Below, in pieces: positions 8,517 to 20,586 of a stretch of DNA of 20,794 bases (the first letter of the stretch is position 1; each line of letters opens with the position of its first letter). The stretch covers positions 1-20,794 of the IMG/VR virus record IMGVR_UViG_3300035670_001436. One strand, written 5' to 3'. Below the pieces are notes generated by a model. The model had not been told where the DNA came from. It was given only the letters and a program-made list of their open reading frames with translations, and did no database searches. The translations under genes and the position numbers were made by a program. The stretch is from a virus.

Positions 8517-9215
8517 CTATCCTCTAAATGATTTGTATACCTCTAAAATATCATCTACTATTGGATGTCTATGATTTTTTTCTAAAGTAACAACTTCAAA
8601 TCCAGGCACTTCTTTCATATGCTTACATACAACATCAAACCCAGATGTTTTCTTATCTCTTAAGTCAATTTGAGCACCATCACCACAAAAAATCATTTTA
8701 CTACCTGAACAGATACGGGTTAGTAATAGTTCTGTTTGGTTGTCTGTTAAGTTTTGTGCTTCATCTACTACAACTAAACAATCAGTAAAGTTTCTACCTC
8801 GCATAAATGATACAGGTACAATTTCAATTTCACCATCTTGTATACATTTTTCAATTTTTTCTTTACTATACAAACGATGCATGTTTTCATACACCGGAGC
8901 AGTAAATGGAGCAAGTTTTTCATTAACATCTCCTGGTAGAAATCCAATGTCTTGTCCTGCTACTACAGTTGGTCGTGTAATGATAATTTTTTCAATTTCA
9001 CGACTAAACAATAAATCAAGGGCAACATTAGCTGCTAATAAAGATTTACCAGAACCCGCTTTTCCTCGTAATATTGTTACAGTATTATTTAGAATTTTAG
9101 ATTTTGCACTTTTTTGTTCTTCATTCAATTGAATGTTAAACTTAATAGGACCTTTTGGTTTGCGTTTTGCTTTAAATACCTCCTGTGCTTCAGGGGTTCT
9201 ATTGAAATCTGTCAT
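8517..9215 (-). CDS. phoH: PhoH-like P-loop ATPase
   Basis: A 232-residue PhoH-family ATPase, common in phages of marine and freshwater bacteria. Numbered from the chosen start, Walker A is GKAGSGKS at 51-58 and Walker B VVVDEAQN at 148-155. Between them are ITRPTV, a GFLPGD motif and EKLAPFTAPVYENM, and after them FCGDGAQIDL, all characteristic of PhoH. The frame stays open 24 codons further upstream to an ATG at 9287, but that extension would run through the gp23 terminator hairpin (9256-9275). The ATG at 9215 is therefore the better start (MTDFNRTPEAQ). The cellular function of phage PhoH is unsettled; links to phosphate stress or RNA metabolism are proposals in the literature. It sits alone between head and neck genes and may have its own transcript. 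Confidence 0.92.
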   Translation of the reverse strand: MTDFNRTPEAQEVFKAKRKPKGPIKFNIQLNEEQKSAKSKILNNTVTILRGKAGSGKSLLAANVALDLLFSREIEKIIITRPTVVAGQDIGFLPGDVNEKLAPFTAPVYENMHRLYSKEKIEKCIQDGEIEIVPVSFMRGRNFTDCLVVVDEAQNLTDNQTELLLTRICSGSKMIFCGDGAQIDLRDKKTSGFDVVCKHMKEVPGFEVVTLEKNHRHPIVDDILEVYKSFRG

Positions 9216-9231
9216 ATAACTATGTTTGTTG

Positions 9232-9239
9232 ATAAATAT
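9232..9239 (-). promoter_or_regulatory. ATATTTAT motif before phoH
   Basis: ATATTTAT on the minus strand lies 16 nt before the chosen phoH ATG, directly downstream of the gp23 terminator. A new transcript would be needed there, which gives this copy a little more weight than the others. Confidence 0.35.
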
Positions 9240-9250
9240 TAATAAAGAAT

Positions 9251-9275
9251 AGAAAAGCCTGGCTCTCGCCAGGCT
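9251..9275 (-). terminator. Intrinsic terminator after gp23
   Basis: A perfect 8-bp stem (AGCCTGGC 9256-9263, GCCAGGCT 9268-9275) with a 4-nt loop. On the minus strand it is followed by TTTCTATTCTTT. It starts 26 nt past the gp23 stop, where a terminator is expected after the most highly expressed gene. Confidence 0.88.
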
Positions 9276-9301
9276 CTTCATATTCAATTATTAGCTATCT
9301 A

Positions 9302-11032
9302 CTATAGTAAACCTAAATCATTGATGTAGATACGACCGAAGAATTCAGGACGGATCATTTTCTTAGCGTAACGAGTCAAGAGACCTTTACGTGGAGTAAA
9401 TGTATCTGGATCGTACACAAGAGGTGTCATGATTAATGGTACATAAGGAGCAAATACAGCACCAGTTTCAAGGAACTGTGAACCACGGTATCCCATTAAC
9501 ATTAAACCTTCAGTCATGTAAGGGTTTTTGTAAACGGTGTAACGGTTGTTCATTTGACCAGCTTTCTGGATACCGAATGCGTAGCTTGCTTTAGTTACAT
9601 CACCATCAGAGCTAGAAGCAAATCCAGGGATAGACTCAAGGATAGTTGCTACGTTTGGAGAAGTTACGATGAAGTTTGCACCACCACGTAAAGTCTTTTG
9701 GTGAATTTTGTTAGAAACTTTCTGCATTTTAGTTCCTAAAGTTTGGAACCATTGACCTTGTGTATTGAAGAAACCAAGATCTGTGTATGGATTACCAGTG
9801 TTAGATGGGTTACCAGCAACATTCAATGCAGTATTGTTTTTAACTGACCACCACTCATCCCATGCAGATGCGTCTTGGATCAACATATCAATTACTTCAA
9901 GGTCGATTTCCAATGCAATATATTCGCTCATGATTGAAGTCAATTCAGCTTCAGCATCCAAAGATTGGTATGCATTTAAATCTTGAGCAAATTCTGGTGT
10001 CCATTGTGCTTTCAACTTACGAGTTTTAGCAACAATAGCCTCAGATTTCATTTGGATATTGATTTGTGGAATTGCTAATTGGTCAGCAGCTGTAGAGTCA
10101 GCATTTGGATAACCAGCACCGCTGTTATCTTCGAAGTCACCACGATAGTTATCTGCTGGTTGAACGTTATAGAAGATAGTGTTTGATGTAGCTGAACCTG
10201 TAGGAAGGTTAGTCATTAATGCACCTGAACCAGAGATAATGAATGTAACAGTGTTTGAACCATTAGTAGTTGTATACTGAGGTAATAAACGGCTGTACAT
10301 AACTGGAAGTGAAGAAGCTACACTAGCTAAAGTACCTGAAGCAGGAACGAATGCGCGAACACCTTTAAAGTCAGGGCGTAAAGCATTAGTACCAGTACCT
10401 ACAGTCATAGTAACTTTAGAGTAGTTACCTAATGATGCAGATAAATCTGAATTGTATTCAACGTCAGACCAAACCGCTGGGGTAACTGTAGTAGTTACAG
10501 AAGCTGAGAATTGGTTGATTGAATAAGCAAAACGACCTGCACCGTATAAACCGTAAGCAGCATCATTAGCAGTTCCAGGGTTTGTATTACCATACATAGA
10601 TGAAGTAGCACCGTAAGCATCACCACCAGGACCAAATGGACCGATAGGAGCAACTTTACCATTTGTATCACCATATTGGAAATCCAAGAAGAATACAAGA
10701 CCAGAAGGTAAGTTCATTGGTTGTACAGAAACGAATTCTTTAGATGATAAAGAACCGAATACTTTACGTACCAATGGAAGAGCTACACCAGCCCAGTTTT
10801 CACCAGTTCCAGTTGTAAATCCTGAACCTCCTGCTTGAGTTGAAGATTGCTCAACAACCAATTGTTTTGCTTGGTTTTCAAGGATTAAAGCCATGTTGTT
10901 TTTCTCAACTTCGCTATTCAATCCTTCTAAGAGACCCGTTTTAGCCCATTTTGAGGCCATACGAGCTGCGTCACTCTGCATGTTTTTCCATCCAGATGCC
11001 GCGCTTTCTAAAAGAGAATTAATGTTTGACAT
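9302..11032 (-). CDS. gp23: Major capsid protein (gp23-like)
   Basis: The 576-residue HK97-fold major capsid protein of the T4 superfamily forms the hexamers of the head. The N-terminal segment (residues 1 to about 61) is a helical propeptide expected to be removed by gp21; possible cleavage sites are after ILE52 or VVE61. The mature chain begins with Gly/Ser/Thr-rich sequence, then VALPLVRKVFGSLSSKEFVS (about 83-102) and VQPMNLPSGLVFFLDFQYG, the hallmark region of gp23. Later landmarks are KLKAQWTPEFAQDLNAYQSL and, near the C-terminus, ARYAKKMIRPEFFG. T4 gp23 is 521 residues, so there are modest insertions. The upstream 27-nt gap is A-rich with no Shine-Dalgarno. It lies directly after scaffold gp22, the standard order, and is closed by a strong terminator. 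Confidence 0.95.
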   Translation of the reverse strand: MSNINSLLESAASGWKNMQSDAARMASKWAKTGLLEGLNSEVEKNNMALILENQAKQLVVEQSSTQAGGSGFTTGTGENWAGVALPLVRKVFGSLSSKEFVSVQPMNLPSGLVFFLDFQYGDTNGKVAPIGPFGPGGDAYGATSSMYGNTNPGTANDAAYGLYGAGRFAYSINQFSASVTTTVTPAVWSDVEYNSDLSASLGNYSKVTMTVGTGTNALRPDFKGVRAFVPASGTLASVASSLPVMYSRLLPQYTTTNGSNTVTFIISGSGALMTNLPTGSATSNTIFYNVQPADNYRGDFEDNSGAGYPNADSTAADQLAIPQINIQMKSEAIVAKTRKLKAQWTPEFAQDLNAYQSLDAEAELTSIMSEYIALEIDLEVIDMLIQDASAWDEWWSVKNNTALNVAGNPSNTGNPYTDLGFFNTQGQWFQTLGTKMQKVSNKIHQKTLRGGANFIVTSPNVATILESIPGFASSSDGDVTKASYAFGIQKAGQMNNRYTVYKNPYMTEGLMLMGYRGSQFLETGAVFAPYVPLIMTPLVYDPDTFTPRKGLLTRYAKKMIRPEFFGRIYINDLGLL

Positions 11033-11059: not shown

Positions 11060-12166
11060 TTAAATAATTCCTGCCAATTTTTGCATACGTAAAAATGCAT
11101 CGTTTGACTCTACGATTGGTTTTTTAGCGTTTGGTGTTACCATTGCTTTTGAAGCACTACCTAGGCTTTCTTTGATTGTGTCTTTTTTAACTTTGATACC
11201 CTCACTTAAAGTTTCAAACACCATCTTAACTTCACCTACAGTTGTTGCTTTGTCAAAAGAACTTAACACTTTCACTTTTTGGTTTTCGTTTAAGTTTTTA
11301 GATTTGAAGATTTTATTTGTGTAAAGCAATTTAGCATTTAACAAATTAATCTCATTCAATTCAGCTTTTAAAGATTCGATTGCAGAGTAAGCCTCTTCAA
11401 GTTCTTCTTTAAGTTTTTTCTTGTAATCGATTTCTTTTTCATCTTCAGCGGTGTCTTTTTTCTTAGGACCTTTACCGTGACCTTCTTTTTCTTTTTTCAT
11501 GTCGTCACGTTTTTCGTCTCCTTTGTTTCCACCATACTTTTTAGCTTCTTCTAAAGAATCCATTTCTTCAATTTCGCGAAGTAACTCAGCTAAATCAACT
11601 TCGTCATCTTCAATACTAATTTCTCCAGCTTCATCTTTACCGCCCATGTCTTCATGTCCAGCTTCGAGTTCACCGGCTTCAAGCATGTCCTTGATAACAT
11701 CTTCAATCATTTTTTTAAGATCTTCATCGGTCATGTCTTCGAGATCAATTGGTTCACCTTCTTTGTCATCTTCTTTAGATTCCTCATCAGATGAATCATC
11801 ATCTTCATTGTCATCTTCTTCAGCTTCGTTTAAGGTTTCTTCAACTTCTCCCTCTTCTAATTCTAACTCTTTTAAAAGCTCTTCTAAATCAATTTCATCT
11901 AATTTGTCATCTTCAGCTTCATAAACGTCTTCAGCTTCATCCATTTTCATATCTTTAGCTTCTTCCATTTTTCCATCTTCAGATTTATCATACATCTCTT
12001 CAAGTTCATCTTCTTTTTCCATTTCTTGAAGTTTTGCAGCAAATATAGCATTTAATTGAGGTGCGAAGGCTTCTTCTAGAGCGGATTTTGCATTTGCTAT
12101 AGCGCTTTCTTTAACAGCTTTAGCATCAGCAATTGCTTCTTTAAGCAAATCTCTGTTTGTTGCCAT
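11060..12166 (-). CDS. gp22: Prohead scaffold/core protein (gp22-like), highly acidic
   Basis: In T4, gp22 is the main scaffold of the prohead core and is later digested by gp21. This 368-residue protein has a helical N-terminus (residues 1-45, LLKEAIADAKAVKESAIANA then FAPQLNAIFAAKLQEME). An extreme Glu/Asp-rich centre of about 160 residues follows (from about 50, with runs such as EEDDNEDDDSSDEESKEDDK), then a lysine-rich stretch near 210-245. It closes with a coiled-coil-prone C-terminal region ending FLRMQKLAGII. T4 gp22 is about 269 residues; the extra length is mostly the acidic block. Position between protease and capsid genes is the standard one. It has its own candidate promoter and structured leader in the 198-bp gap upstream. 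Assignment rests on position, composition and termini, since the acidic core evolves fast. Confidence 0.82.
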   Translation of the reverse strand: MATNRDLLKEAIADAKAVKESAIANAKSALEEAFAPQLNAIFAAKLQEMEKEDELEEMYDKSEDGKMEEAKDMKMDEAEDVYEAEDDKLDEIDLEELLKELELEEGEVEETLNEAEEDDNEDDDSSDEESKEDDKEGEPIDLEDMTDEDLKKMIEDVIKDMLEAGELEAGHEDMGGKDEAGEISIEDDEVDLAELLREIEEMDSLEEAKKYGGNKGDEKRDDMKKEKEGHGKGPKKKDTAEDEKEIDYKKKLKEELEEAYSAIESLKAELNEINLLNAKLLYTNKIFKSKNLNENQKVKVLSSFDKATTVGEVKMVFETLSEGIKVKKDTIKESLGSASKAMVTPNAKKPIVESNDAFLRMQKLAGII

Positions 12167-12364: not shown

Positions 12365-12997
12365 TTAAATTATAGGGCATGAACCCTTTGCACATAAAAT
12401 ATCAGTAATAATTGAATTTGTACGTGCATATTGATTTAAATATGTTGTTCTTGATTCATTTAATGCACCATTTATCATCCATGAGTCTGGATTAGATGGG
12501 TTGGAAACTAAATCCCAGGTAAGTAATTCAAAGTCATCTTGTACTTCCATTACTTCACCCATTTGTTTTAATGAGCCCATTCCACGAGAAGAAATTCCAA
12601 TGATTAAACCATTTCTAACTAACGCACCAGCAATACGACCTGATGAGGTGCCTAGGTCACCTGAGTCAGCGAATATTTCTACTCTGCCCCAGATTTCATC
12701 TCCTCTCCACCATACTTCACGAATTGCATGTGATGCATTTTTAAGATTGATTACTTGAGAGTCAGGATGATCTAATTCACCTACGGTTTCAGTAGAATGT
12801 TGTTTGATCTTACGTGTAAAATTTTCAATTTCACGTTCCCATAACTCACGTTTGTAATATCTACCATTCCCATTTTTTACTTCTACAGTAGCTAATATCC
12901 CTTCAACAAAAATATTTTTGCCTTTATCTACCCCTTCAATTAATCGAACAGGTTTTGGATCAAAATGTCTGGTTTCTATTAAAAGTTGCTTGTCCAT
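12365..12997 (-). CDS. gp21: Prohead core protease (gp21-like)
   Basis: A 210-residue serine protease of the T4 gp21 family (MEROPS S80), which cleaves scaffold and the capsid propeptide during head maturation. Visible landmarks are NGNGRYYKRELWEREI (42-57), GELDHPDS with probable catalytic His77, and GISSRGMGSL with the probable catalytic Ser at 136 or 137. The conserved LLTWDLVSNPSNPDSWM stretch lies at about 159-174. Length matches the family (T4 gp21 is about 212). It follows the 661-aa gene with a single-base gap and is ended by a strong terminator. Specificity for sites like (L/I)xE is known for T4 and assumed here. Confidence 0.93.
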   Translation of the reverse strand: MDKQLLIETRHFDPKPVRLIEGVDKGKNIFVEGILATVEVKNGNGRYYKRELWEREIENFTRKIKQHSTETVGELDHPDSQVINLKNASHAIREVWWRGDEIWGRVEIFADSGDLGTSSGRIAGALVRNGLIIGISSRGMGSLKQMGEVMEVQDDFELLTWDLVSNPSNPDSWMINGALNESRTTYLNQYARTNSIITDILCAKGSCPII

Positions 12998-12998
12998 C

Positions 12999-14984
12999 TT
13001 AATAGTTGTCTTCTCGGTCTTCTAAATAATCTTCTAAATCATCACTTTCATCAGAAGGCATGTTTGTATATGTGCTAACAATAGAATCTATTTTTTGCCC
13101 ATCATCTTGACGCTCATCAGCATCTTCAACATATTCAGGACTTATATCAAATTCATCTTCTACTTCGTCAATTACTTCAGTTTTTTTAACTTTACCTTTA
13201 TGTTTAGATATTACTTTTTCAAGTTTAGTTTTAGCTTTTTCTAAAGTTTTAATGTCTTTTTCAAGCTCTTTAATTTTCTTTTTATCAGTAAGAGCTTTCA
13301 TATCTTCATCTTCATCAAGTTTACCGAGTTGAGATTGACGTTTTTCAATAGCATCAGCAAGTTTTTGAAGTTTACTTTCTAATACTTCATATTCAGCCAT
13401 TTTATTGATTTCAGCTATTTCTTTTTCAACACCTTCTCTTAAAAGTGACTCACGAAGAATCATTTCTTCAAGTTCTTCTTTTTCTTGTTTACTTAATGGA
13501 ATTTTAACACCAACACCTTTTTCACGTTCAATAGGCATATTAACAGCATGGTAATTACCAAATGACATTTTAGGATCAACATTCTTTTTAATTAATGCTC
13601 TAACCATAGGATCTAAATCAGAAATAAGTTTTTCTAATTCATTTTTACCCATTTCTTTTTCTCTAGATGTTCTTCCTCTTTCAAGTCCTTGAATAGCATT
13701 ATACAAGAAGTTAGAGATTAACATAATAGATCCTTCAGGTTTAGACAAAAATTTGATATGAGGAATCTGTAATGATTCATCTCTAGCAGGAGTATTAGGG
13801 CCTGGGTTGGAGAAATTAAGTTTGTCTATTAATTCTTGGGATAAAAATGCTTCACTAGGAATGTATCGTCTTCCACCTCCACCAGTGTTAGAAGTACTAA
13901 CGCTAGGAGCTTGATACATTACTTCGTCTACTTCATTTTCTTCTAAATTTTGACTAATTGAATTTAATCCAGCAATATGTGAAGTATATATTTTTTGAAT
14001 ATCATCTAATGCATTCTTATCATTTAAATGAGGTTGTTCTAATTTAAAAAGAACATCTTTAAATTCTTCTGTGTTTAATTCTTCAGCAATGATTTCTTTG
14101 ATTACTTTACGTAATTTAGATTCTTCAAGTGATTCTTCTTCAAATAACGGTTTTGCAACTTTGTAAATTTGATTTGCTATTTTATTAGCATTTGAAGAAG
14201 TCTCAAGTTTTCCGTGGCGAGCAAATCCTTCAATAGCTTTTAATAATTCTTTATCTGTAAAAGTATCAGCATTTTTTAGATTGGTGTTTTTTTGTAAAAA
14301 TACCACCATTGCCTTTTTAATATTTTCTTTTGCACCATTAACATCACCTAAAGGTTTTGATGAAAATAATCCTTCGTTTAAGTCACCATAGCCAGAAAAT
14401 TTATATTTTCCTTTAGCTTCTTTAGGTTCACCTAAACCTGGGTGATCAACTGAATAACCTAAGTCTTTAACGCCGAATTGGGCATTTTTAGTATAATAAA
14501 TTGGGTCTTTTGTTAAGTTTTTAAATACGATGTCTTTTAATTCTTGCATCGTTTTATCACTATTTTTAGGATCCTTCATTTCCGCATAATAACCCATCAT
14601 AATTTGATCAAATATCATATTATCAGGATTTTTTTCATCTGAATTATTATATACATGGCTAAGGTCTTCCTCTACAGGTTTAGAGACTTTTTTCTCTTCT
14701 GCTTTAACTTTCTCATCTTCGTTTTTCTTTTTTGCCTCAGCTAAAAAGTCTTCAAAAGCGGTTTCGTAAGATTCTTTTTTAGGACGGTCCATTATAGCAG
14801 GCATCACAGTAAATACATTTTCTGAAATGATATTTTTGGTTTTGAGTGATGATATGGCTTCATCAAATGTAGCTGCGTTACGTATGATGTTTGGGAATTG
14901 GCGTTTTGCTTCTGTAAGGAAAACACCTTTATGTCCTTTACCTTCTTTGATTAACAAATATTGATCTTGTAGGGTCTTTTTCAT
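12999..14984 (-). CDS. Uncharacterised head-module protein, 661 aa
   Basis: A 661-residue, highly charged, soluble protein encoded between portal and protease, where T4 carries the small core proteins gp67 and gp68. The N-terminus (KKTLQDQYLLIKEGKGHKGV) is followed by a Lys/Glu-rich linker (about 75-110). The middle region contains PDNMIFDQIMMGYYAEMKDP and KKAMVVFLQKNTNLKNADTF. A GGGGRRYIPSEAFLSQELID segment lies near residue 370. From about 510 to 600 there is a long coiled coil (ELEKDIKTLEKAKTKLEKVI), and the tail is extremely acidic (DESDDLEDYLEDREDNY). There is no membrane segment or enzyme motif. Gaps of one base on either side tie it to the 162-aa gene and gp21. I infer an internal prohead core or head protein, possibly a gp21 substrate. 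It is not a recognised homologue. Confidence 0.75.
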   Translation of the reverse strand: MKKTLQDQYLLIKEGKGHKGVFLTEAKRQFPNIIRNAATFDEAISSLKTKNIISENVFTVMPAIMDRPKKESYETAFEDFLAEAKKKNEDEKVKAEEKKVSKPVEEDLSHVYNNSDEKNPDNMIFDQIMMGYYAEMKDPKNSDKTMQELKDIVFKNLTKDPIYYTKNAQFGVKDLGYSVDHPGLGEPKEAKGKYKFSGYGDLNEGLFSSKPLGDVNGAKENIKKAMVVFLQKNTNLKNADTFTDKELLKAIEGFARHGKLETSSNANKIANQIYKVAKPLFEEESLEESKLRKVIKEIIAEELNTEEFKDVLFKLEQPHLNDKNALDDIQKIYTSHIAGLNSISQNLEENEVDEVMYQAPSVSTSNTGGGGRRYIPSEAFLSQELIDKLNFSNPGPNTPARDESLQIPHIKFLSKPEGSIMLISNFLYNAIQGLERGRTSREKEMGKNELEKLISDLDPMVRALIKKNVDPKMSFGNYHAVNMPIEREKGVGVKIPLSKQEKEELEEMILRESLLREGVEKEIAEINKMAEYEVLESKLQKLADAIEKRQSQLGKLDEDEDMKALTDKKKIKELEKDIKTLEKAKTKLEKVISKHKGKVKKTEVIDEVEDEFDISPEYVEDADERQDDGQKIDSIVSTYTNMPSDESDDLEDYLEDREDNY

Positions 14985-14985
14985 T

Positions 14986-15474
14986 TTATTTGCTTAATAA
15001 TTTTTGGGCTTTTTTAATATATTCTAAAGCCATTGATGTCGGTTTATAAATACTAAACTTTCCAGGGTTAGCTTTGTAATATTCAATAGTTTGATTTTTA
15101 GCGTTGGAAATAAGAATATTTAATTCATCTTGGATTTGATCAAATTCATTAATTCTTTCTTCTTGAAATTTTTCAACATCCGTTTTTTCATCTTCCCAAA
15201 GTTGTTTAACTTCTAAACCAGATCCTTCAATTTTTTTAGGTACTAATTTATACTTAAATTGCTTAACATAAGCATTATCTTTTACACCTTCGGATCCAGC
15301 ATTTGGCCCCATACCTAAATCAGCTCCAGGACCCTCTTTAATATTTTTAGTTTTTTTAAATGCTTTAGGAGTAGCATAATTCATCCCTTGACCAGGAGAA
15401 AACGAAGCACCACCCATTCCGGTAGCGCTCATTTCTGCTAATTTTTTGCGAATTATTTCTTTAATTTTTTCCAT
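14986..15474 (-). CDS. Uncharacterised head-module protein, 162 aa
   Basis: The 162-residue protein has a short basic helix (MEKIKEIIRKKLAEM), then a Gly/Met/Ser-rich flexible stretch (SATGMGGASFSPGQGMNYAT, about 16-35). Basic and polar sequence includes YKLVPKKIEGSGLEVKQLW, and a helical C-terminal half runs from about residue 92 (DEKTDVEKFQEERINEFDQI). Its start overlaps the end of the 286-aa gene by 14 nt, and its stop is one base before the 661-aa start. The GG-ASF-PGQG-NYATP string resembles proteins seen downstream of portal genes in other environmental T4-like phages, from memory only. Likely a virion or prohead component; function unknown. Confidence 0.72.
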   Translation of the reverse strand: MEKIKEIIRKKLAEMSATGMGGASFSPGQGMNYATPKAFKKTKNIKEGPGADLGMGPNAGSEGVKDNAYVKQFKYKLVPKKIEGSGLEVKQLWEDEKTDVEKFQEERINEFDQIQDELNILISNAKNQTIEYYKANPGKFSIYKPTSMALEYIKKAQKLLSK

Positions 15475-16321
15475 TTACAGTTTCTAACTCATTTATTAAA
15501 TCATAATACTGTAACAAATCAACTAAGTCATTATCGGTAATTTTAGACGTTTTAGCCGGTACCTGGATAATGTTAATAATTTCGTTGATTTTTATTTTGG
15601 TTGCTTCGTTTTTGGTTTTATTATTTAACGTAGCTAATTTTTCTTTAATTTCAGTTACCTTAGTAATATAGAATTCTTTTAAACGAGGTTTATTATCAAC
15701 CGAAGTAATAAATTCTTTAAGGATTTCCTTTTGTTGGGGATGTAAATCGTTATATTTTGAATTGAAATTTTCTAATATTCTTTTATATGCTAATAAACGA
15801 ACACTTTTGTCGGCTTGTTCAAATTCAATCATTGATTCACTACGATCATCATTATTGATTTTAGCTGCGGTTAAATGCTCTAAAATAGTTACTTTATTAG
15901 ATATAATTTGATCGGGGTTAGTAGATTCTTGTGCATTTACAATTTCTAGTAATGTGTAAAAAGCAGCATATACCTTGTAATTAGGTAATTTATGATTAAA
16001 AAATTCATTTAAATCATATTGTTTTTGGATCTCACTAATTAAATTGTATTTTTGACGTTTAATAGCTCCTCTATTTAATGTTTTAGAAGATTCAATTAAT
16101 GTATCTACTACAACATTTGCTTTACCTTCAGTTAATGATGTTCTTTTAAGTAACGTTTCATATAACTTATACTCACGACCCAATTCCGATTTAACGAAAT
16201 ATTTTTTCAGTATGTCTTTAGCAGGGGAATCTTTTCCATCCAGTGTGTCTGTAGTAATCTGGCGAACTAAAAGTTCAAAGAGGATACCCGTGTTCTTATA
16301 CTTTGAATGTTTGATTTGCAT
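15461..16321 (-). CDS. Uncharacterised head-module protein, 286 aa
   Basis: A 286-residue, mostly helical, charged protein starting MQIKHSKYKNTGILFELLVR. Landmarks are KDSPAKDILKKYFVKSELGR (about 31-50), the EYKLYETLLKR helix, LPNYKVYAAFYTLLEIVNAQ, and an IKEKLATLNNKTKNEATKIK stretch near the C-terminus. It has no signal peptide, membrane segment or catalytic motif. It is the first gene after the portal, 41 nt downstream, and carries an AT-rich TATAAATA/ATATTTAT element in that gap. It overlaps the 162-aa gene by 14 nt, implying translational coupling. By position it could be a head assembly, core-nucleation or portal-associated factor, but this is inference. Confidence 0.75.
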   Translation of the reverse strand: MQIKHSKYKNTGILFELLVRQITTDTLDGKDSPAKDILKKYFVKSELGREYKLYETLLKRTSLTEGKANVVVDTLIESSKTLNRGAIKRQKYNLISEIQKQYDLNEFFNHKLPNYKVYAAFYTLLEIVNAQESTNPDQIISNKVTILEHLTAAKINNDDRSESMIEFEQADKSVRLLAYKRILENFNSKYNDLHPQQKEILKEFITSVDNKPRLKEFYITKVTEIKEKLATLNNKTKNEATKIKINEIINIIQVPAKTSKITDNDLVDLLQYYDLINELETVNGKN

Positions 16322-16338: not shown

Positions 16339-16351
16339 TATTTATAAATAT
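16339..16351 (-). promoter_or_regulatory. AT-rich element with TATAAATA before 286-aa gene
   Basis: Minus-strand TATAAATA (16346-16339), the textbook -10 of T4 late promoters, overlaps ATATTTAT (16351-16344). The TATAAATA ends 17 nt before the ATG of the 286-aa gene. This is the only place in the window where I saw the T4 late box in the sense orientation in a gap. Confidence 0.4.
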
Positions 16352-16362
16352 ATAGAATTTCT

Positions 16363-18261
16363 TTACTCTCGTATTTGTGATTCATCTAATAGTGAATTCC
16401 CCCTAATATCTGACTCAAAAATCATTTGTTTTTGTTGGTTTTTGATATCATGAAACATTTTTTTATTAGGGTTTGGTCTTTTTTTAGTTTCAAGAGCTAA
16501 TGGACTGTTACCTTTATATTGAGGTTTAATAGAATTTGATTCATCTCCGTCGGTTTTAGCACCATCTGCTCCAATTCTATCTTTTCCAAATGCATTATCT
16601 TGGGTATTTTTATCTGTTACCTTTTCAGAAGGACGACCTAAATCTTTTTCTTCATCATACCCTACAGGTACATTAGTAGCTTCATATCTTCCTCTACCAT
16701 ATAAAGAAGCTAGATCATGTGGAGTACCATAAGATTTTCCGGTTTCAAGAGGATCATTACCCTCATTTTCAATTTGTGCAACACGGAATTTACGTTTAGC
16801 ATCCTGAAGTATTAAATCTCTATATTCATCATATTGGTCTTCACTCAAATGGAATAAGTTTTCATATATCCAATCAGTTGGTAGGATTTTATTTTCCATC
16901 ATCTGAGTAGCTAATTCAACTTTTTCCTTAAGTAGGGCTACTCTTTCTTGGTCATAAATGATGGAAGGTGTAGTTAATGACAATTCAAAATTTGTCATAC
17001 TTTCATCACGGTATCCCTGAGAGTATAAATGGACTAAAGCTATTTTATTTAATTCAGACACTACAATGCGTTGGATACGTTCAATTGTACGTGCAAATCG
17101 AATATCTTCAGCAGCTAACGTAGCTTTACCTGTTAAATCTTTTTCATAACCCATAAATGCTTTAGGCACTTTAAGGGCAGCAAATAATTTATCTCTTAAA
17201 TAAGTAACGTCTTCAATACCTTGCCATTGTAAACCTGCTAAATTATCAATTTTAGTTGCTTGATCATTACCTCGTACTGGGATGTAGAAGTCTTCAAGCA
17301 AGTTTTGCATGTTGTATTTTAAATTGTAATCTCCAGTTTGTTGATCAATATAAGGAGTACGTTTCATTTTAGAAATAGTCTTCTGCATAAAGTTTTCTAC
17401 TTCAGCAGGTGCAATATTTCCAACATTAATATAAAAAATACGTTTTTCAGGTGCGCGAACAATACGGTGAATTAACATCGCATCTTCCATCATTATATAT
17501 TGTTTAAACAATTTACGAGCAGGCTCTAAATATGATCTACCATAAGGTAAAAAGTTAGTATCCGTTAATAAACGGAAATGTGCCATTTCATAATTGTCAA
17601 AATATATTGAATTTGCTTGCCCACCAGCATTTGGGACATTATAGTAACCATAATCAGAAGGAGATGAAATTCCATCTGGGTCAAAACGGAAACGTACTGA
17701 ATTTGGGTGGTCTTTGTCATATCCATCTTGTCTTTCAATATGGAATGCATTGTAAGGGATTACATTATATACACCAAATTTTTCAGCAATTTCTAATTTT
17801 AAAAAGAAATCACCGTATTTCAACATATTACGAATCCAAGGCCATAAGTTAAATTCTACATTCAATACATCATAGAACAAATTATATAGAATTTTTTGTA
17901 CATCTTCATCTGATGAGCGAATTTGTAATACTTCACCCATATCATTACGTAATGTACTTTCATCAGATAAGATATCTAGGGCAGAAGCAATGATAGCATC
18001 TGTATCCATTGAATCATATTCGGAATAAAGTGTGGGGCGTAAAGTTTGGTAATTAAAGCTACTTTGATATCCATAAATTGAGGTGTGTGAGTTAGTATAG
18101 ATACGATTAAATCTATCTACTAATGCATTAGTTTCATATTCACCTGAAATTTGGATTTTGTTTATATCAAATACTTTTAACTGGTTGTCTCCTTCATTTC
18201 GGATGATAACATCAGTTGAAAATAGTCGTCTTAATCGTGAAAATAATCCTGTATCTGCCAT
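16363..18261 (-). CDS. gp20: Portal vertex protein (gp20-like)
   Basis: A 632-residue portal protein forms the twelve-fold ring at one head vertex through which DNA is packaged and ejected, and it nucleates prohead assembly in T4. The diagnostic segment MMEDAMLIHRIVRAPEKRIF (about 257-276) is followed by YINVGNIAPAEVENFM, then YNLKYNMQNLLEDFYIPVRG (about 312-331). The channel and clip region follows (YLRDKLFAALKVPKAFMGYE, about 354-373). Upstream, SMDTDAIIASALDILSDEST (about 84-103) is also characteristic. T4 gp20 is 524 residues; the extra length is mostly a polar C-terminal tail. It starts 3 nt after the terminase stop with an A-rich leader, so the two are co-translated. Confidence 0.95.
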   Translation of the reverse strand: MADTGLFSRLRRLFSTDVIIRNEGDNQLKVFDINKIQISGEYETNALVDRFNRIYTNSHTSIYGYQSSFNYQTLRPTLYSEYDSMDTDAIIASALDILSDESTLRNDMGEVLQIRSSDEDVQKILYNLFYDVLNVEFNLWPWIRNMLKYGDFFLKLEIAEKFGVYNVIPYNAFHIERQDGYDKDHPNSVRFRFDPDGISSPSDYGYYNVPNAGGQANSIYFDNYEMAHFRLLTDTNFLPYGRSYLEPARKLFKQYIMMEDAMLIHRIVRAPEKRIFYINVGNIAPAEVENFMQKTISKMKRTPYIDQQTGDYNLKYNMQNLLEDFYIPVRGNDQATKIDNLAGLQWQGIEDVTYLRDKLFAALKVPKAFMGYEKDLTGKATLAAEDIRFARTIERIQRIVVSELNKIALVHLYSQGYRDESMTNFELSLTTPSIIYDQERVALLKEKVELATQMMENKILPTDWIYENLFHLSEDQYDEYRDLILQDAKRKFRVAQIENEGNDPLETGKSYGTPHDLASLYGRGRYEATNVPVGYDEEKDLGRPSEKVTDKNTQDNAFGKDRIGADGAKTDGDESNSIKPQYKGNSPLALETKKRPNPNKKMFHDIKNQQKQMIFESDIRGNSLLDESQIRE

Positions 18262-18264
18262 ATT

Positions 18265-19872
18265 TTATTTTTGTAAAAGCCAAGAAATGTCTTCCTTGTC
18301 GTTTGAGTAAGGGTTGTTTATTTGGTATGGGTTATTATTATACTTATCAGCATAACTAGGTCCATGAGAATAACCTCCAGCATATGTGGTACGAGAATTT
18401 CCTATACCATTTAACATACTTTTAGTCATTTCCATGTTACTTGTTCTAAGTTTAAATGCAGTTTCGCGTAAATAACAACCGATACAAAATGCCATTACTA
18501 AGTCATCATTATATCCTGATTGGGCTTCTGCTCTGCCATTTCTCCATATAAATACTTTCATTTCCTCTAATAGGCGAGCTGAGTAAAAAACAACTCCTTT
18601 ATCCATAACAGCTTCTTGGAATTTTCCAATTGCTATAGGGCGAGTTGTATTTGACATCGTAAAGCCTGGGGTCATCTTGCTATGATCCATGTAAGGGTCA
18701 AAGAAAGTATCTACGTTGTTCATACCACCTTTTGGTGAGTAATAAAAATTTTGATAACCTCTATCTAAAATGGTTTGTACAGTTGACCAACCTACGCTTT
18801 GATTTTCGACTGCTAACAAGGCATTGTTATATTCCGTTGCAATGCTTGTTAGTAAATGTCCGTAATCTTTTGTGTTAATTTGGCCCTTATATTCACCTAC
18901 CTGAGTGAATGTTTCAACATCAAAGATGTGAAACGCCGAAAAATCCTTGCCATCACCACGTGCTACATCAGCTACGATCAGATAACTCCTCGAATAATCC
19001 GCTGGTTCCCAAATCCATAAGTTTTGATCAATGCCACGTTTTTCTAGAGGTTCTTTCACGTGAAATTGTTCGTAAAAAGTAATATCTTCTGGGAGGAATA
19101 CTGTGTCACCAGATGTTGTGAAATCGCAATCACATTCCTGTGCTGCCATTCTAACACCTAGATCTTTATCTTGTTGGTCCCTCCATGATTGATCTCGTTC
19201 AGGGTGTACTTGCCAAGGTAATCTAATAGGTAAAAAACTATTATCACCCATTTCGGCATTAACCCACGTTTGATGAAACCAATTACCCGTACCATAAGGT
19301 GTAGATAATGCAATGCATCCACCACCCGTAGCTAGGGTTTGTTGGGCTGATGCCCAAATCTCACCAATATTGTGGATAAAGGCGGCCTCATCTATAATTA
19401 ATAAAGAAACGGCTTCTGATCGACCAGCATCACTTGATGCACCAACGGCTTTAATTTGAGATCCATTTGGTAGTCGAAGTGTTAATTTATTTGCCTCGTC
19501 AGGTTTATTGGCAAATTTAAGCCAGGAAGGTAAACTTTCATACATGAATTTTACCTTAGTAACCATGTTTTTAGCAGTTTCCTGTTTTGTTGCAATACAA
19601 AGGATGTTTTTATCCTCATGGAAAATCATTAACCACAATGAATAACCTGCGGCTAATGTTGAAATACCCAACTGGCGGGATTTGAGTACTATTGAGTATG
19701 GGTTCTCTTGGAATAAAGTAAGTACTTTTTCTTGAAATGGATAAAGATTAAAAGGTACTCGTCCACGTTTTGGGTGTTGGATCTGGCAGTATTTTTTCAT
19801 GAAGTATGCCGGTGATTGGGCACATTTCATATATTCCTCGCGGACGACTTGTTTTAAACTTTTTTCTTCCAT
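18265..19872 (-). CDS. gp17: Terminase large subunit (gp17-like)
   Basis: A 535-residue packaging motor with ATPase and nuclease domains. The ATPase has a Walker A-like SRQLGIST (65-72), preceded by K64, Walker B LLIIDEAAF (158-166, with D161 and E162), and coupling motif STPYG (190-194). The RNase H-like nuclease has candidate acidic residues D302 (IVADVARGDGKDFS), E356 (AVENQS) and D456/D457 (GYNDDLVM). T4 gp17 is 610 residues, so this is somewhat shorter. Walker A carries Ile where T4 has the Lys of SRQLGKT. The ATG shares one base with the stop of the preceding 142-aa gene (TAATG), and the portal starts 3 nt after its own stop. No small terminase gene is visible in the window. Confidence 0.95.
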   Translation of the reverse strand: MEEKSLKQVVREEYMKCAQSPAYFMKKYCQIQHPKRGRVPFNLYPFQEKVLTLFQENPYSIVLKSRQLGISTLAAGYSLWLMIFHEDKNILCIATKQETAKNMVTKVKFMYESLPSWLKFANKPDEANKLTLRLPNGSQIKAVGASSDAGRSEAVSLLIIDEAAFIHNIGEIWASAQQTLATGGGCIALSTPYGTGNWFHQTWVNAEMGDNSFLPIRLPWQVHPERDQSWRDQQDKDLGVRMAAQECDCDFTTSGDTVFLPEDITFYEQFHVKEPLEKRGIDQNLWIWEPADYSRSYLIVADVARGDGKDFSAFHIFDVETFTQVGEYKGQINTKDYGHLLTSIATEYNNALLAVENQSVGWSTVQTILDRGYQNFYYSPKGGMNNVDTFFDPYMDHSKMTPGFTMSNTTRPIAIGKFQEAVMDKGVVFYSARLLEEMKVFIWRNGRAEAQSGYNDDLVMAFCIGCYLRETAFKLRTSNMEMTKSMLNGIGNSRTTYAGGYSHGPSYADKYNNNPYQINNPYSNDKEDISWLLQK

Positions 19873-20300
19873 TATTTAATTACCATCAATGTAAGAATAA
19901 CAAGTATGGAAGACACGAATCCTCCACCTAACCATTTAATTCCTTTCTTTAAGTTGGTGTTTTTACGAGTAAGTTCAGTTACATCGTTTTCTAATCCTTT
20001 AATTACAGTATCTTGTACAGTAACAATTTTTTCATAGTTTGCTACTTGCTTAAGATAATTTGTTTCTTTAGATATGTAAATATTAATTGTACTATCTTTG
20101 GCATCAATTTTTTCATTTAATTGCCATACCATTTTATTTACAATTTTTAATTCAGCAATAGCAGAATCACCTCGTGAAAGATCAATTGCAATAGCTCGTG
20201 CTTTATCATGTGAAAAACAAATTTTATCTGTAACGATCTGTGAAAAACTGTTCGAGCTCAGAATTAGAAGCACTAGTAAGATCTTTAATTTTGTTGCCAT
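19872..20300 (-). CDS. Exported coiled-coil membrane protein, spanin-like candidate
   Basis: The 142-residue protein has a signal peptide (residues 1-20, KILLVLLILSSNSFSQ), with cleavage likely before or after Gln21. A polar helical body of about 100 residues (coiled coil about 45-118, with DVTELTRKNTNLKK) leads to a C-terminal membrane span (about 121-141, GGGFVSSILVILTLMVIK). It would therefore hang in the periplasm tethered by its C-terminus. Its start lies inside the preceding 120-aa gene, overlapping by 77 nt in another frame, a layout typical of spanin pairs that disrupt the outer membrane at lysis. It ends in TAATG with the terminase gene. The lysis role is inferred from architecture; a structural or holin-related role is possible. 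Confidence 0.7.
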   Translation of the reverse strand: MATKLKILLVLLILSSNSFSQIVTDKICFSHDKARAIAIDLSRGDSAIAELKIVNKMVWQLNEKIDAKDSTINIYISKETNYLKQVANYEKIVTVQDTVIKGLENDVTELTRKNTNLKKGIKWLGGGFVSSILVILTLMVIK

Positions 20301-20586
20301 AGTATGTGCGTGTTGTTTGTAGCTCTTTTTCTGTGTGTTTAATTTCTAAATTCAATGAATCAACAATGTGATTTTGTTGTTCAAGATTTTTATTTAAAAT
20401 TTTTTGACCTTCTTTTAATAAAAAGATGTTATTTTTTAATCGTTCAATTTCTTGTTTTTGTTTAATATATTTGTCAGTTGATGTAGGTTTTTTAACATCA
20501 CACTTAACTAAAAATATTAATAATAACAAAAATATCCCACCTATAATTAGATGGGATAATTTTATTTGAAATGTTCTATTTTTCAT
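20224..20586 (-). CDS. N-terminally anchored coiled-coil protein, i-spanin-like candidate
   Basis: The 120-residue protein has a short basic N-terminus, one membrane span (about 12-27, LIIGGIFLLLLIFLV) and then Cys29. A long coiled coil runs from about 38 to 95 (QKQEIERLKNNIFLLKEGQK), with a tail ending SNSELEQFFTDRYR. The topology resembles inner-membrane spanins such as Rz. The LVKC before the Cys is not a standard lipobox, because Lys at -1 is unusual, so a membrane anchor is more likely than a lipoprotein. Its last 77 nt overlap the start of the exported 142-aa gene. It starts one base after the stop of the upstream partial gene. Function inferred from architecture and the overlapping pair only. 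Confidence 0.7.
   Translation of the reverse strand: MKNRTFQIKLSHLIIGGIFLLLLIFLVKCDVKKPTSTDKYIKQKQEIERLKNNIFLLKEGQKILNKNLEQQNHIVDSLNLEIKHTEKELQTTRTYYGNKIKDLTSASNSELEQFFTDRYR

Follow-up and report, generated by a model that had tools for sequence, protein, structure and literature searches.

On balance, we consider it probable that the three genes between the portal and prohead protease genes of this virus, here called X, Y and Z, make up the prohead-core/internal-head locus of a putative Far-T4-like lineage, with Y as a tagged core protein and Z as a carrier. The window, i.e. the whole stretch of DNA analysed, comprises 20,794 bases (positions 1 to 20,794 of the IMG/VR virus record IMGVR_UViG_3300035670_001436). 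We favour this reading because the genes keep a constant position, a T4-type late-promoter box precedes them, Y opens with a tag that contains the protease consensus LxE, and tagged genes cluster in the same interval of a related record, LR756508. A first-pass annotation of the window had also proposed prohead-core or internal head proteins, a proposal that these points support but to which comparison with T4 gp67 and gp68 added no link. It had missed the modular make-up of Z with its exchanged centre, and the occurrence of the N-terminal tag on unrelated proteins genome-wide.

The minus-strand run consists of terL, portal (gp20), X, Y, Z, protease (gp21), a gene in the scaffold position and MCP (gp23) (Table 1). 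As described earlier, X and Y overlap by 14 nt, gaps of 1 nt separate Y from Z and Z from the protease gene, and in T4 the portal-protease interval is occupied only by gp67 (80 aa) and gp68 (141 aa). The three ORFs proved to be real genes of unknown families: none had a Pfam match above the cut-off, and the PHROG search gave a single match, a weak one between Z and an unknown family.

Table 1 Features of the portal-protease interval and its surroundings in the window
Feature	Position	Strand	Remarks
PhoH	8517-9287		
MCP gp23	9302-11032	(-)	PF07068, 7e-75
Scaffold-position gene	11060-12166	(-)	
gp21-type prohead protease	12365..12997	(-)	3' neighbour of Z; PF03420, 6e-26
Z ORF	12999..14984	(-)	661 aa
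Z C-module	13002..13424	(-)	residues 521-661: coiled coil and acidic tail
Z hypervariable centre	13425..14384	(-)	residues 201-520
Z payload domain	13500..13853	(-)	about residues 378-495; modelled fold alpha/beta
Internal tag-like motif in Z	14076..14120	(-)	SKLRKVIKEIIAEEL, residues 289-303
Z N-module	14385..14984	(-)	residues 1-200; present in all relatives
Y ORF	14986..15474	(-)	162 aa; N-terminal tag, Gly-rich segment, helical C-terminus
Tag of Y	15433..15474	(-)	MEKIKEIIRKKLAE, ending in LxE; fits relaxed tag pattern only
X ORF	15461..16321	(-)	286 aa; all-helical, constant length, one copy per genome
T4-type late-promoter box	16339..16346	(-)	TATAAATA, in the portal-X gap
gp20-type portal	16363..18261	(-)	5' neighbour of X; PF07230, 1e-66
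terL	18265-19872	(-)	

The arrangement is not a product of chance, since a survey of gene order, as proposed with the first-pass annotation, found 98 IMG/VR loci, with 62 distinct Z, that have complete X, Y, Z and protease genes in this order. The IMG/VR searches gave 80 loci with X as the query and 79 with Z, and an alignment-based search confirmed at least 587 relatives of X. Among isolates, the order recurs in Flavobacterium phage immuto, with X at 44%, a Y of 73 aa and a Z of 360 aa; the LMO8 phage paper contains neither immuto data nor mass spectrometry. In Microcystis phage Mel-JY01 and in the 484-kb record LR756508, X (at 37% and 36%, respectively) is followed by other small genes, one of which has a Y-like N-terminus in each case. 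Four of the six MAG contigs with X were labelled Flavobacteriaceae, Flavobacteriales or Chitinophagaceae, which suggests that the hosts of X-bearing phages are Bacteroidota. LR756508 has a portal ORF of 1386 aa and a protease of 574 aa (L004, about 18323-20047; LR756508 156480-158204) with an intein-like insertion directly after GELDHPD that begins CLKKHSAQALTVDG. In L163:10373, L176:10710, L167:4428 and about a dozen further relatives, but not in the window, Y and Z are separated by an extra small gene; its product (73-93 aa, MANIPVNPTGIVTTTSITGSFAGF...) is rich in Thr, Ser and Gly and probably in beta structure.

The late-promoter box TATAAATA lies just upstream of the first gene, as in a T4-type late operon. 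Of 146 distinct upstream regions of relatives, 78 had it at most 70 nt before X, nearly always at 17-26 nt, against a background of 0.01 per 70 nt; in relatives it was found neither before Y (0/160) nor before the protease gene (0/121). The number of late boxes in the window alone was not above chance.

X is mostly 282-289 aa long, with 40 invariant positions among 71 diverse members, and its AlphaFold2 model is all-helical (pLDDT 82, pTM 0.52). It had no match in PDB, and in BFVD it matched only two unnamed proteins from uncultured phages. No sequence relative was found in T4, and Pfam, PHROGs and fold searches gave no functional match for X. Read from its position, this constant helical protein would probably act where portal and core first meet. 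One relative (L070:3463-4365) has an exact 16-aa tandem duplication near the C-terminus of X (SRITDNDLVDLLQYYD twice).

The T4 prohead-core genes gp67 (PIP) and gp68 are, like X-Y-Z, closely spaced between gp20 and gp21; they are small, whereas here there are three genes, which are much larger and one of which is modular. The profile comparison that the first-pass annotation had suggested gave no link: hhalign matched X, Y and Z to none of gp67, gp68 and gp22, with a best probability of 0.12% for gp67/gp68, in a test of low power, as gp22 was not matched by the phage's own scaffold either. No member of X, Y or Z matched the PHROG families of gp67/gp68. The profile of Z matched neither gp22 nor this phage's scaffold, a comparison that is similarly weak. 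By the tests made, the proteins fall outside the gp67, gp68 and gp22 families, and the locus appears to work like a T4 core/internal-protein locus in which different protein families would take the gp67-gp68 position. The Far-T4 phages (Roux et al. 2015, PMC4360716) are aquatic and T4-like, and phoH adjoins the structural genes, as here; a text search of that paper found no treatment of the portal-protease genes.

The N-terminus of Y is a short basic-amphipathic helical segment, which has the form MEKIKEIIRKKLAE in the window and ends in LAE or LKE in most Y. This tag, with the consensus LRxxIRxEIxxxLxE, stands at the start of 3-15 unrelated proteins in each of six related genomes. We counted it with a strict pattern, L[RK].[ILVMA][IVM][RK][EQRKSN].[IVLM], which goes back to a motif in Z. 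The Y proteins of G002, G004 and LR756508 fit this pattern, and that of the window fits only a relaxed one. N-terminal tags numbered 15 in LR756508, 8 in G005 (the record of L150), 5 in G002, 4 in G004, 3 in G001 and 3 in immuto, and tags inside proteins 3, 0, 0, 2, 2 and 0, respectively, with one at a C-terminus. The totals for the six relatives were thus 38 N-terminal and 7 internal tags, to be read with the provisos that the pattern was picked after inspection and that orthologues were counted more than once. Shuffled proteins of four genomes gave 0.03-0.04 N-terminal tags, and the strict pattern found none in T4 or Mel-JY01. The contrast between N-terminal and internal tags and the T4 control are the stronger parts of this evidence. 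LxE stood at offset +14 in 19 of the 38 tags, so that half were without it, compared to 0.9% at later offsets.

The 33 tagged proteins that we scanned had no common family, only scattered weak domain matches. In LR756508 the peptide and not the DNA is conserved, because the tags share codons no more often than codon usage predicts (same-codon rate 0.41 vs 0.40), and this rules out a DNA-level cause of the likeness for that record. The somewhat raised rate in G005 (0.63 vs 0.50 from codon usage) fits recent duplication. No paper naming the tag was found in a literature search that had most subscription journals outside its range.

Unrelated bodies behind a short N-terminal peptide ending in L/I-x-E are likewise characteristic of the T4 internal proteins IPI-IPIII with their capsid targeting sequence (PMC9026906, PMC12373910). 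The T4 internal proteins have only an N-terminal leader in common (PMC12373910), and L/I-x-E is the consensus of the T4 prohead protease gp21 (PMC9026906). Y and the tagged proteins have both of these marks, a common N-terminal peptide and, in most Y and in half of the counted tags, its end at L/I-x-E. The peptide itself differs from that of T4, whose proteins are without this tag, and, unlike in IPI-IPIII, a tagged domain is here also fused inside a larger protein of the core locus. We infer that Y would be a core protein that enters the prohead by means of its amphipathic N-terminal tag, which a gp21-type protease would cut at LxE, much like the T4 capsid targeting sequence. In several relatives (L195:5374-6067, L199, L204, L205 and L208) two genes take the place of the single Y, one for the Gly-rich part and one for the helical C-terminal part (77-95 aa), which again points to module fusion and fission in the portal-protease interval.

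Z consists of parts with very different histories. The N-module has a mean pairwise identity of 81%, whereas the centre varies from 41 to 416 aa, is mostly unalignable and has mostly 1-17% identity per 20-aa block. The similarity of the centre hardly follows that of X (rho 0.13), unlike that of the Z N-module (0.75), the protease (0.79) and the portal (0.81); unrelated centres can accompany X that are 97-99% identical, and common centres X near 69%. For this reason we conclude, from sequence comparison, that the centre of Z undergoes horizontal exchange. The earlier description of the interval as the most conserved part of the genome therefore holds for X and the Z N-module, whereas few stretches are less conserved than the centre of Z. 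The AlphaFold2 model of Z resembles beads on a string and has low overall confidence (pLDDT 64, pTM 0.27). Z had no match in PDB, and Pfam, PHROGs and fold searches gave no functional match for it.

The internal tag motif of Z (in the window SKLRKVIKEIIAEEL) occurs 0.95 times per Z, compared to 0.002 in shuffled Z. There is normally one copy, which rules out an array of LR-motif repeats; the N-terminus of Z was likewise rejected as a common tag, with one copy per genome. A domain often found behind the internal tag is a separate gene in L150 and L148, and the window's payload domain is a distant version of it. In L150 the stand-alone domain starts with a tag of its own, from which point on it runs colinear with Z; no further copy was found elsewhere in L150's record. 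Since tag and domain form a separate colinear gene, the centre of Z looks like a captured tagged protein. Z would join the core through its conserved N-module; the payload that it carries would be exchangeable and would have begun as an independent tagged protein, acquired by fusion. FLTE25 of Z was rejected as a conserved cleavage site, distant relatives having FLKSA or FLKQA, and concentration of the LxE sites of Z in linkers was not significant (p=0.20).

The first-pass annotation had seen in Z a possible second scaffold, and the features that it named are real: a coiled coil spans about residues 499-596 in the model, and the last 62 residues include 25 D/E against 5 K/R. On this view X, Y and Z would be purely structural assembly factors, with Z as an accessory scaffold and its variable centre as a tolerated spacer. 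We regard this as unlikely, although the position of the genes agrees with it and scaffold proteins, too, vary in sequence and length. A gp22-type scaffold should have the coiled coil in all relatives, but about 30 complete distant Z had no C-module that we could detect, and 14 of these amount to little beyond the N-module (193-224 aa, without coiled coil or acidic tail, most of them stopping where the variable centre starts). Only the N-terminal 200 aa are universal, and a coiled coil that the family can do without weakens the scaffold role. Nor would a spacer require folded, exchanged domains, one of which is a gene on its own. By inference from these features, Z as the carrier of an exchangeable payload fits better than Z as a scaffold.

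Some tagged genes lie far from head genes, among them an array in G005 beside a clamp-loader-like gene, in which a second N-terminal motif, FNLKKYLAENKL, interleaves with the tag. This would agree with a tag that binds another phage or host machine (e.g. as a signal for degradation, a polymerase or the membrane) and that Y merely happens to have, but we think such a role improbable, more so than the structural one: 5 of the 15 tagged genes of LR756508 are located between X and the protease, an interval of 13 ORFs (p=3e-6), LxE is fixed at +14, and T4 internal-protein genes, too, are not confined to one locus (PMC12373910). In LR756508 the genes that follow the protease have looser forms of the tag. 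The G005 array (97.6-102.5 kb; L255:17666-19997 and L256:1-2496) is made up of small genes with unrelated bodies and alternating N-terminal peptides, MKHSQLKQLIKEEIRSVLNE and MKEFNLKKYLAENKLLNE; MKEFNLKKYLAENKLLNE is also the N-terminal peptide of four genes in immuto, of which two lie directly upstream of terL.

To our knowledge, no one has yet characterised the head-core genes of Far-T4 phages. Should the tag prove to be a capsid-targeting signal, the orphan proteins that enter the head could be predicted from a simple N-terminal pattern, a large set of unknown genes would become testable, and the centre of Z would be a place to seek injected host-takeover or anti-restriction proteins. T4 Ip1-3 proved to be such proteins (PMC12373910), and one survey detected Far-T4 phages in nearly all of its aquatic viromes (PMC4360716). 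More tentatively than the assignment of the locus itself, we propose a lineage-specific capsid-loading tag on several to more than 12 unrelated proteins per genome, and a Z that would serve as a dedicated carrier, its captured whole tagged payloads being swapped between phages so that a variable set of proteins would reach the host, possibly in counter-defence.

Upstream of terL, two overlapping ORFs at 19872-20586 encode proteins with a signal-like or lipobox-like N-terminus and helical bodies, and possibly represent a candidate spanin-like lysis pair.
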